A DNA stretch of 58,390 nucleotides, from NCBI GenBank assembly GCA_014799845.1, contig JAAVHF010000016.1, positions 1-58,390 on the forward strand, written 5' to 3'. Shown in pieces: positions 2,975-48,922 of this stretch. This DNA comes from Oscillibacter sp. GTDB taxonomy: Bacteria > Bacillota > Clostridia > Oscillospirales > Oscillospiraceae. How positions within the stretch are numbered: position 1 is the stretch's first letter; every line of letters starts with the position of its first letter. The notes beneath the pieces were generated by a model that was not told the DNA's origin, searched no databases, and saw only the letters and a program-made list of their open reading frames with translations. The translations under genes were made by a program, and so were the position numbers.

Positions 2975-3119
2975 AGCAGTATCGCCTTCCTTCTACCACA
3001 GGATATGATTTGCTTGTCCAAAAAATGAATGACAAATCCAAAATGATATGCTATACTATATTTTGCCGCGCTGGGCGCGGAAAACGGGAAATTCTTCCGC
3101 GGCCCTGCGGGCCGTCCCC

Positions 3120-3680
3120 GGCATCAATCTTGTTTTAGATTCGCCCTGCCGGGCCGTGAAGCGCCGCAAGGCGGCGCTTTTAGCGCTAAGACCGCCGCAG
3201 GCGGCCCCACGGGGGGCCTACTTTTCCCTTGCAGGAAAAGTAGCAAAAGTGCCCTCAAGGGGGCTTCGCCGCCCTTGAGAATCCCCTAATATGTCGTTTC
3301 GTTTTGCGCTTGTCCTGTAGTCTGTCCGGTCTGAATTAACCGGCTCCCGTGTATGAGGCGAAGCGCCGATCCAACGATGTTATCGGCGGACCCTACCGTA
3401 CCGCTTTGGGTACTCCCGGGGCAGTCGCGTCAGACGGTCCCCCTTGCAAGGCAGTCTCTCTTTAACAGGGCGGCAGCCGGAGTCCTTCAAGCGCCAGGCC
3501 ATCAGAAGGACAACCTCCAACTCAGGGGCACCCAATCCATCAAGTCACCGCCCAATGGTGACAAGCTCCCCCGTATAGGGAAGCGGCACGAACGTGCCGC
3601 CCCGTCACGATTGTGCACGGCCACTCGATGTGGCCGTTGCAGAATCAAGGGGCCGCGCAGGCCCCGGGCTATCGAATAGA
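3120..3680 (+). repeat. Dispersed structured intergenic element, copy A (long form)
   Basis: Stem I 3218-3243 CTACTTTTCC/GGAAAAGTAG; stem II 3254-3279; 'TTTTGCGCTTGTCCTGTAGTCTGTCCGG'; end module 'GGGGCCGCGCAGGCCCCGGGCT'. Shares several hundred bp with the reverse complement of 14.7-15.2 kb. Confidence 0.85.
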
Positions 3681-3799
3681 ACAATCTAAACTGACTGCCC
3701 GCAGGGACGTCATTCAGCCGCCTCCGGCGCCTGAATGACCGTCCCGGCACTCGGCCAAAGGCCGAGCGCCGGGGGCGGCCGGAGAAAGGAAGTCCCCCT

Positions 3800-14582: not shown

Positions 14583-14708
14583 ATTGTTTTTCTCCTTCCG
14601 GGCAGGATTTTTCTTATTCTGTCCGGGGGGAAATTATTTATGCGGGGTATTGGTTTTTCCATAAAAAGCTGTTGACGCGTTCACAACAAAATCATATAAT
14701 TGCAAGAG

Positions 14709-15243
14709 ACGCAGCCCCGGGGCCTGCGCGGCCCCGGAACCCCGCGCCTACTTTTTGTGTGAACAAAAAGTAGGCAAAAAGTCACTTGAACCTACGGTTC
14801 AAGACTCCCTTGACGGGGCGGCACGTTCGTACCGCTTCCCTATACGAGGGTGTTCGCGGACATTGGGCGGAAACTTGCCGGATTGAGTGCCCCTGAATTA
14901 GAGGTTGTCCTTCTAGGGGCCTGGTGCTTGAAGAACTCCGGCTGACGCCCTGTTAAAGGGGTACTGCCATGCAAGGGGGACGTTCTACCGCGACTGCCCC
15001 GGGAGAACCCAAAGCAATGCGGTAGGGTCTGCCGTCTGCATCGTCAGACAGACGCTTCGCCCGATACACGGGACCCGGTCAATTTAGCCCGGACAGACTA
15101 CAGGACAAGCGCAAAACAAAACGGCCCATTCGGGGATTCTCAAGGGGCTATGGCCCCTTGAGGGCACTTTTGGTTCTTTTCCTGCAAGGGAAAAGAACGC
15201 CCCGTCGCGGCAGCGACAAATCCAAAACAAGAAACAAGGAGCG
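14709..15243. repeat. Dispersed structured intergenic element, copy B (about 535-bp composite with inward-facing hairpin pairs at both ends)
   Basis: Left end: 14747-14774 (stem I) and 14785-14803 (stem II). Right end, inverted: 15139-15162 (stem II) and 15173-15198 (stem I). Interior matches copy A in reverse orientation. Confidence 0.88.
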
Positions 15244-15276
15244 TTCGCGCCCGCAGGGCGCGAAAAGAAGATTGTG

Positions 15277-24646: not shown

Positions 24647-24716
24647 GTATACCGAAAACCACTCGCTGGGCGAGTGGTTCAAAAGAAGCCTTGTGGCGAT
24701 AATGTAGACAGAAAAA

Positions 24717-24774
24717 CTCCCTTTGCTTAGAATAAGAGTGCGGTCTGCCAACTGCACAATAAAAGCAAAGGGAG
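24717..24774 (+). promoter_or_regulatory. SD-sequestering stem-loop in tnpA leader
   Basis: CTCCCTTTGCTT (24717-24728) pairs perfectly with AAGCAAAGGGAG (24763-24774), which contains the GGAGG SD. Confidence 0.85.
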
Positions 24775-24783
24775 GTCATTACA

Positions 24784-25218
24784 ATGAATGACTTAAACAG
24801 TTTATCGCATACGAAGTGGAATTGCAAGTACCATATTGTATTTGCGCCGAAGTACCGGCGGAAAGTATTCTATGGAGAGAAACGGCGTGAAATTGGAGAA
24901 ATTCTGCGGACGCTGTGCAACTGGAAAAAGATCAAGATCATTGAGGCAGAAGTATGTCCGGACCATGTGCATATGTTGGTGGAAATTCCACCGAAAGTTG
25001 CGGTGTCGAGTTTTATGGGGTATCTGAAGGGGAAGAGCAGCCTGATGATCTACGAGAAGTACCCGGAACTGCGCTATAAGTATAGGAATCGGGAATTTTG
25101 GTGCCGTGGCTATTATGTGGATACAGCAGGAAAGAATGCAAAAAAGATTGAGGAATATATCCGGCACCAGTTGGATGAGGACAAGGCAGGAGAACAGTTG
25201 ACGATGGGGAATTTCTAA
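24784..25218 (+). CDS. tnpA: IS200-family transposase TnpA (HUH, Y1)
   Basis: 'KWNCKYHIVFAPKYRRKVFYG', 'CPDHVHMLVEIPPK' (HUH region), 'FWCRGYYVDTAGKNAKKIEEYIRHQ'. Confidence 0.96.
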   Translation: MNDLNSLSHTKWNCKYHIVFAPKYRRKVFYGEKRREIGEILRTLCNWKKIKIIEAEVCPDHVHMLVEIPPKVAVSSFMGYLKGKSSLMIYEKYPELRYKYRNREFWCRGYYVDTAGKNAKKIEEYIRHQLDEDKAGEQLTMGNF

Positions 25219-33604: not shown

Positions 33605-33657
33605 TTGCGTTCCTTCCTTCTTCGCGCCTCCGGCGCGAGGGGAATTTTTCTTGAATC

Positions 33658-33968
33658 AGCCCGGGGCTTACGCGGCCCCGGACCACGAGGACGTCATTCG
33701 CGCTGTGGGCGCGAACGACCGTCCTAGGTACTCGCCCTTCGGCCGAGCACCTACCTACTTTTTGTGCGAACAAAAAGTAGGCAAAAAATCGCTTAAACCT
33801 ACGGTTTAAGAATCCCTTATTATTACGGGGGAATTTGTTTTGCGCTCGTCCTGTAGTTTATACGGTCTAAACCGGACTTCTGGCGTAGTTTCTCCTGCTC
33901 TGCGTCTCTTTCAGGATGTTTCCGAGGGTCCCTACCGTCTTGCTTTGGGTTCTCCCGGCGCACCGCGT
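33658..33968 (+). repeat. Dispersed structured intergenic element, copy C
   Basis: End module AGCCCGGGGCTTACGCGGCCCCGG; stem I 33754-33781; stem II 33792-33810; GCGCTCGTCCTGTAG core; GGTCCCTACCGT..GGGTTCTCCCGG. Confidence 0.85.
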
Positions 33969-34189
33969 ATATGTCAATGCTTCCACAAATTCAAAAATTT
34001 TGCGAACGGTTGCCCTCTCCCCGGCAACTTTTCCTTCTTTTCAAATTAAATCTGAGGGAAGACAAACCTCCGAGTTTTGAGGCACTAAAGCAAGTCGAAC
34101 CCCGATCCAGGTACCGGATCGCACGCCGGGCTACACAAAAGGCTGTGCAGATCGAACCTTGAAAACCGAATAGCCAATAGGATTTTTAC

Positions 34190-38560: not shown

Positions 38561-38856
38561 ACGGGGTAAAAAATAAGACCCCGTCTCTTTTCCAACAAAG
38601 AGACAGGATCGTTTCATGCAACAATCTTGCGGTACCACTCTTTTTGCCGCCAGAGGCGGCCGCTCAGCGTGACTAACATCACTTCCCGACGTAACGGTCG
38701 GGTCCCGTCCGTCCTATTGGAGGTCTTTCCTCGTTCAGACCGGCCGCTCCGGGGCGACTTATACAGAACCTCCCTCCGCCGGCTCGCACCGCCCGCCGGC
38801 TCTCTGAAGCGGGAACTGATCTGCTTTTTCCCCATCACAGCGTTTCTTCTTGAATT
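38561..38856 (-). promoter_or_regulatory. T-box leader of ilv operon
   Basis: Minus strand: stem I start 'GAUGGGGAAAAAGCAG', 'GGCGGUGCGAGCC' apical region, T-box 'AAGAGUGGUACCGC' (38629-38640), terminator GATCCTGTCTCTTTGTTGGAAAAGAGACGGGGTC + TTATTTTTT. Confidence 0.93.
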
Positions 38857-39187: not shown

Positions 39188-39237
39188 TCTCTACCGCTCC
39201 TTTCTTTCGTCAGTGGTTTCTTCCGTCAGCCCGGGGA

Positions 39238-39490
39238 CTCCTCGCCCCCGGACCCCCCGCCTGCTTTTCCCCCACGGGAAAAGCAGGCAAAAGCGTGCCA
39301 GAACCAACGGTTCTGGACTCCCTCGGGCGTCGCGTGAAGCGCGACGCCTTACTACGGGGGCGTTTGTTTTTGCGCTCGTCCTGTAGTCTGTCCGGCCTAA
39401 ACCGGACTTCTGGAGTGGGGGCTTCTGCTCTGCGGCTGTTTCAGGATGTCGATTTGGTCCCTACCGTATGGCACGAGGGGAACTCCCGGG
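39238..39490 (+). repeat. Dispersed structured intergenic element, copy D
   Basis: Stem I 39260-39287 CCTGCTTTTCCC/GGGAAAAGCAGG; stem II 39298-39316 CCAGAACC/GGTTCTGG; GCGCTCGTCCTGTAGTCTGTCCGG core. Confidence 0.85.
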
Positions 39491-48606: not shown

Positions 48607-48871
48607 CCCCGGGAGATTCCGCGTGTATGACGGCAGGGTCTGCGCCAACATCCTGAAACAGACGCTTCGCAGCAGAAACCACACCCGCAGTTCGGTTTAG
48701 ACCGGACAGACTACAAGATAAGCGCAAAAAACAATATCCCCCGTAATGGAGCGTCACCCCTTGGGTGACGCCTTAAGGGATTCTTAAACCGTAGGTTTAA
48801 GTGACTTTTTGCCTACTTTTTGTTCACACAAAAAGTAGGCGCAGGGTTCGGGAGCGCGCAGCTCCCGGGCT
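48607..48871 (-). repeat. Dispersed structured intergenic element, copy E
   Basis: Reverse strand: AGCCCGGGAGCTGCGCGCTCCCGAACCC, stem I 48812-48839, stem II 48783-48801, GCGCTTATCTTGTAGTCTGTCCGG core. Confidence 0.85.
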
Positions 48872-48922
48872 ATCGATGAGAAACCATTTAGTGCGGTCTG
48901 AAAGACCGCAAAGGAGCACCCA

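Follow-up and report, generated by a model that had tools for sequence, protein, structure and literature searches.

A hairpin-ended intergenic repeat upstream of moxR in Oscillibacter is probably a gene-less, MITE-like copy of an element carrying XRE repressor and DUF6809 genes

Between pdaA and moxR in an Oscillibacter sp. genome lies a repeat, here called copy B, each end of which carries a pair of hairpins (stems I and II); the two pairs face inward and enclose an interior of about 330 bp (14709-15243). The repeat was studied within a stretch of 58,390 nucleotides (the window, to which all positions refer) from an Oscillospiraceae MAG of 2.39 Mb in 104 contigs (74% complete). A promoter-like box stands immediately to its left, and orthologous loci have a TTGAC..TATAAT box at the matching position. 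The features of the locus are the following:

14672 to 14700, plus strand: putative promoter of the moxR operon, TTGACG-17-TATAAT, immediately left of the element (from sequence only)
14709 to 15264, plus strand: copy B, the full gene-less element with its right outer hairpin (aligned with 14-19 other copies)
14715 to 14737, plus strand: left GC hairpin, CCCCGGGG..CCCCGG (sequence; double changes in the copy alignment)
14746 to 14775, plus strand: left stem I, GCCTACTTTTTGT-GTGA-ACAAAAAGTAGGC, a perfect inverted repeat with 13-bp arms (double changes between copies)
14785 to 14803, plus strand: left stem II, CTTGAACC-TAC-GGTTCAAG (sequence; copy alignment)
14810 to 14984, plus strand: left arm, whose gene-bearing homologues (L287, L304, L308, L329, L330) end 3-12 bp from the XRE stop codon
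14985 to 14987, minus strand: CTA, which aligns with the XRE stop codon of the gene-bearing relatives L287 and L329
14994 to 14999, no strand: approximate junction of the gene-less form, at which the XRE-DUF6809 pair stands in relatives (about 545 bp; alignment)
14999 to 15025, plus strand: remnant resembling the last codons of DUF6809 with TAG at 15023-15025 (compare CCGGGAGAGTCCGAAGCGGTACGGTAG in L287 and CCGGGAGAACCCTAAGCGGTACGGTAG in L329)
15026 to 15131, plus strand: right arm, the DUF6809 side in gene-bearing copies (arm comparison)
15139 to 15162, minus strand: right stem II' (sequence; match to copy A; copy alignment)
15173 to 15198, minus strand: right stem I', GTTCTTTTCC..GGAAAAGAAC (sequence; copy alignment)
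15204 to 15217, minus strand: right GC hairpin, GTCGC-GGCA-GCGAC (sequence; other copies)
15244 to 15264, minus strand: right outer hairpin, TTCGCGCCC..GGGCGCGAA, directly before the moxR start (sequence; other copies)

An earlier sequence-only reading had placed the stem I/II pair at both ends in opposite orientation, which is borne out (14746-14775 and 14785-14803 against the inverted 15139-15162 and 15173-15198), and had set the boundaries at 14709 and 15243, which are too narrow: in other aligned copies each end is accompanied by a GC hairpin and an outer GC hairpin (TTGCCGCC..GGCGGCAA), so the unit is longer. Copy B has kept both extra hairpins on the right (15204-15217 and 15244-15264) and, on the left, has no outer one; in genome G138 a similar hairpin stands at the place of the right outer one without stem I/II ends. 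No ORF of its own was found within copy B, which is non-autonomous. As the promoter-like box lies to its left and its right outer hairpin lies near the moxR start, the copy would form most of the moxR leader.

BLAST with copy B gave 54 dispersed matches in its own genome, about 20 of them near full length and the next best with an E value of 1e-167, which excludes chance; copy counts here and below are drawn from searches and selected stretches of fragmented MAGs. The window holds further members, located by sequence matching:

3100 to 3790, minus strand: copy A, a reverse member of the family in which the far stem I/II is replaced by another hairpin family
33640 to 33962, plus strand: half-element C, whose GC hairpin and stem I are separated by the insertion of another repeat
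39226 to 39480, plus strand: half-element D
48620 to 48890, minus strand: half-element E

The interior of copy B is shared with copy A in reverse, as had been proposed (3607-3213, 84% over 395 bp, E 5e-120). Copy A had also been said to lack the far stem I/II pair and to have unrelated sequence there; the pair is missing, a hairpin from a different repeat family stands in its place, and the GC hairpin farther out is kept (3649-3668). C, D and E, read earlier as one-ended derivatives, are indeed half-elements, with arms of a type related to that of B. Of the adjacent ends at distinct loci with a distance below 600 bp, 38 pairs face inward, three are in tandem and none faces outward, and the inward pairs are uniformly spaced, mostly 352-400 bp apart. 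No near-identical pair was seen among the copies, hence no sign of recent transposition. Copy B is short and gene-less, with inverted ends and many dispersed copies, features that it has in common with MITEs.

Some inward end pairs enclose 0.9-1.1 kb containing divergent genes for an XRE repressor (73-85 aa) and a DUF6809 protein (~80 aa); the two longest pairs, L146 (own genome, contig C74) and L121 (genome G122), both do so. When DUF6809 (PF20648) was searched across the genus and 59 loci were taken from seven element-carrying genomes, a hairpin end was found near 32 of the 59 and on both sides in 19; the flanking ends faced inward without exception (51/51), and the spans between end centres were mostly 0.86-1.14 kb. 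Inward-facing ends were found at none of 17 control genes of the same genomes. Nearly every hairpin-flanked DUF6809 gene is accompanied by a divergent XRE-like ORF, and the other DUF6809 genes lie, at least in part, in different contexts. In G030, of another genus, CTTTT..AAAAG hairpins lie near XRE-DUF6809 pairs. Purifying selection acts on close homologues of the two genes (dN/dS about 0.05-0.2 in the closest homologous pairs, XRE and DUF6809 alike); the medians over all pairs (0.42 for XRE, 0.56 for DUF6809) mean little because poorly alignable pairs are included. We regard copy B and the XRE-DUF6809 copies as very probably one family. The earlier description of B as a complete non-autonomous element thus stands as far as a bounded, non-autonomous unit with inward ends is concerned and fails on completeness, the fuller unit being the one that carries XRE-DUF6809.

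The gene-bearing copies have a fixed orientation relative to the host genes. With DUF6809 set forward, the host neighbours on both sides run opposite to it in 19 of 21 copies, or 29 of 31 when one-sided cases are included (rough gene prediction), i.e. XRE is co-directional with host transcription and DUF6809 antisense; gene-less copies have no such bias (about 10 versus 6-7). The bias suggests either that DUF6809 is kept low by read-through from host genes or that the opposite orientation does harm. In G125, two loci (L334 and L335) have nearly the same DUF6809 with clearly different XRE repressors, a pairing that suggests exchange between gene-bearing copies.

Comparison of copy B with the gene-bearing form places the missing genes at one point. 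In the five gene-bearing loci listed above, homology to the left arm of B stops no more than about 12 bp from the XRE stop codon, and homology to its right arm starts at the DUF6809 stop codon in L329 and L293. The corresponding stretch of B reads GCAAGGGGGACGTT-CTA(14985-14987)-CCGCGACTG / CCCCGGGAGAACCCAAAGCAATGCGG-TAG(15023-15025), and the stretch leading up to the last TAG is similar to the 3' end of DUF6809 in L287 and L329. Fifteen aligned gene-less copies, each at a site of its own, have this junction region in common; L030 is the most diverged of them. Since these copies, at unrelated sites, have essentially one junction, the gene-less form spread after it had arisen. One internal deletion followed by dispersal would be the simplest reading of the junction, and we consider it likely that copy B arose by deletion.

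The converse, that a gene-less hairpin element was ancestral and XRE-DUF6809 was inserted into it as cargo, has several observations in its favour. Gene pair and ends can separate: upstream of fchA (L409-L428), where an upstream terminator (CCCGGCGGCG..CGCCGCCGGG) is common to the loci, the pair stands as a block in 12 of 20 genomes and is missing from the others, and it has at least one recognised hairpin end in eight genomes and no recognisable end in four. The pair likewise occurs without recognisable ends in other genera, the gene remnants in copy B are short, and the arms are exchangeable, swapping sides between copies. However, the gene-less copies retain sequence matching the 3' ends of the genes at the single common junction, and the genes of the gene-bearing copies are more diverse than the sequence of the gene-less type-1 copies. 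Gene capture is thus unlikely.

Among the 25 genomes of the genus, 19 contain the family of copy B, many of them with tens of matches; beyond the genus only short matches were found. The pdaA-moxR site is filled in the own genome and, with other module content, in G125; it is empty in G122 (whose flanks resemble those of G125), G029, G128, G127, G124 and others, and in G138 it holds about 250 bp of other sequence. Similarly, the nusB-xseA site (named by reading of the encoded proteins) is filled in the own genome and, in other forms, in G123 and G029, and empty in G138, G122 and G125. At glmS, the own genome and G122 have a left flank in common as far as TATTC; beyond it, about 610 bp of element take the place of some tens of bases. 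The pdaA-moxR comparison had been proposed with the sequence-only reading, for which gradual divergence of a copy held at a common site would have been the adverse outcome; the moxR, xseA and glmS regions differ block-wise instead, in a comparison between species of the genus with a single genome for the source species. No clean target-site duplication was readable at these three sites, where filled and empty forms are strongly diverged.

This pattern also bears on the idea that XRE-DUF6809 and the hairpins are old resident modules, inherited vertically, of which the gene-less copies are local decay products. Gene-bearing copies can be old residents, as the presence of the fchA copy in 12 of 20 genomes indicates, and their fixed orientation agrees with this. 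A single gene-less junction at about 15 unrelated sites and intergenic sites that are filled or empty block-wise speak against local decay, and we hold this explanation to be improbable.

The hairpin ends themselves behave as DNA palindromes. In 67 left and 53 right distinct end sequences, with pairs below 60% Watson-Crick left out, 97% of the stem pairs are Watson-Crick (1985 of 2054 cells with bases on both sides), 0.8% are G.T and 1.5% A.C; many double changes were found, several loops occur in both orientations, and there is no strand preference. In a functional RNA, G.U pairs on one strand are expected, and the near-complete Watson-Crick pairing with G.T below 1% argues for palindromes at the DNA level. 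The stems would fit palindromes kept perfect in DNA, e.g., by template switching, which one report (PMC8794818) describes as creating and maintaining hairpins. A structured regulatory RNA or leader of the downstream genes is accordingly very improbable: copy B is strongly structured and lies between promoter-like sequence and the moxR start, and other copies lie near the start codons of glmS, xseA and others, but the element has no Rfam match at gathering thresholds and almost no G.U, is missing from orthologous leaders, and stands in either orientation before unrelated genes. For lack of an Rfam match and of a wobble excess, RNA function was rejected as a candidate.

REP/BIME-type palindromes spread by a RAYT or IS200-type tyrosine transposase are comparably remote as an explanation: the many intergenic palindromes in opposite orientation and one IS200-type Y1_Tnp in the window (24814-25170) would suit it, but Y1_Tnp occurs in only six of the 25 genomes and in none of the element-rich G029 (97% complete), G125, G128 and G140, the GTAG of copy B lies within paired stem I rather than in an unpaired tag, and the gene-less copies lie between genes that run in the same direction or diverge and seldom between convergent genes (rough gene prediction; small baseline from the 58-kb window only), where REPs are common (PMC3733652). 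Mobilisation by RAYT or IS200 was rejected on the Y1_Tnp distribution.

We return to deletion from a gene-bearing parent and propose that copy B is probably a non-autonomous, MITE-like copy of a hairpin-ended, XRE-DUF6809-carrying element. The gene-bearing form is about 1.1-1.3 kb long and consists of a hairpin end, an arm, XRE, divergent DUF6809, a second arm and an inverted hairpin end. Both genes would have been lost by internal deletion, and the gene-less form would have multiplied and inserted at new intergenic sites via factors supplied in trans, the hairpin clusters acting as DNA in the role of recognised ends. XRE may act as a repressor of DUF6809 and of its own divergent promoter. Neither a RAYT nor any other recombinase was found for the element (the genus-wide survey being for Y1_Tnp); because none is encoded, DUF6809 might serve as a factor for mobility or recruitment, drawing on the recombination or replication machinery of the host or of a helper. 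It is the best candidate for such a factor, a role we assign to it only tentatively. At pdaA-moxR, transcripts of the moxR operon may begin with the copy as a long structured leader. Equally speculative is a class of selfish elements whose sole genes, for an XRE repressor and DUF6809, lie between hairpin-cluster ends and which move with no recombinase of their own; DUF6809 would then be a new mobility factor and would recruit the machinery of the host. If so, gene-bearing copies would settle between co-directional genes (XRE sense, DUF6809 antisense) and throw off gene-less copies such as B.

DUF6809 itself has no relative in PDB or PADLOC and no convincing one in NCBIfam, and no paper on it was found in the literature. 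Three distant homologues in IMG/VR, with no evident XRE-type divergent gene and no clustered hairpins, adjoin genes taken as of conjugative-element type; AlphaFold gave a low-confidence helical model for two distinct viral homologues (mean pLDDT 62.5). Carriage by plasmids or phages was rejected, there being no DNA match and no DUF6809 match.

Among known systems, bacterial MITEs are the closest. The Tn3-derived TIMEs (PMC4133298) and MITEAba12 (PMC6382973) are, like copy B, short and gene-less with inverted ends and many dispersed copies, and apparently derive by internal deletion from a gene-bearing parent; in the present family, by contrast, the putative parent, the XRE-DUF6809 form with which the ends are shared, has no recognisable transposase, the ends are diverse hairpin clusters rather than a fixed terminal inverted repeat, and no target-site duplication is readable. 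REP, BIME and REPIN sequences with their RAYT (PMC2817692, PMC3116915, PMC3733652) are alike in being dispersed intergenic palindromes in opposite orientation with variable stems, whereas the present element is about ten times longer, has no unpaired GTAG or CGTC tag (stem I of B), has an XRE-DUF6809 gene-bearing form, and is without a RAYT in most of the genomes that are rich in it; REPs lie mainly between unidirectional and convergent genes (PMC3733652). The BOX elements of Streptococcus pneumoniae (PMC3049150), compared by description, are likewise modular, mosaic and hairpin-rich, up to about 640 bp long and transcribable in leaders, but they have no such gene-bearing form, and they are over-represented between convergent genes (PMC3049150), where the family of B is rare. 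XRE two-gene modules such as type II toxin-antitoxin systems (PMC2701414) also combine a small XRE regulator with a small protein in many diverse copies per genome; here the genes are divergent rather than in one operon, dedicated hairpin ends flank the pair, and DUF6809 is without a PDB or PADLOC relative. No description of a hairpin-ended XRE-DUF6809 element was found in the literature, mostly open-access papers. The association links unexplained intergenic hairpin repeats of gut Oscillospiraceae to a specific gene pair. It also places the uncharacterised DUF6809 family in a genomic setting, offers a role for it that can be tested, and raises the possibility of a mobile element that has no recognisable recombinase.

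Other elements were observed in and around the copies. The IS200-type element of the window spans 24657-25170 and combines the Y1_Tnp ORF with a match to Rfam STnc490 (24657-24771); a T-box leader lies at 38596-38847 on the minus strand. A second hairpin family (GATTCTGCAACGGCCACATCGAGTGGCCGTGCAGAAT and GATTGTGCAATGACCGC..) interrupts the element or takes the place of parts of it at 3600-3650 of the window and in L008, L013, L014, L023 and L146, at an identical point in L014 and L146 where B is uninterrupted. A third family (GGACGTCATT..AATGACCGTCC, then CTCGGCC..GGCCGAG) lies beside or inside copies (window 3707-3790 and 33690-33753, L161, L172), and mutually similar sequence (CCCCGATCC..GGTACC), possibly another dispersed repeat, was found at 34098-34160 and in the G138 pdaA-moxR region (L160). 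Finally, the repeat CCGTGAAGCGCCGC..GGCGGCCCACGG lies within the loop of the hairpin family GACCGC-TCGA-GCGGTC, which it splits between TC and GA (inside the element in L146 of the own genome, G000, contig C74, and in L147; also window 3155-3213), and is a nested insertion into a hairpin loop.
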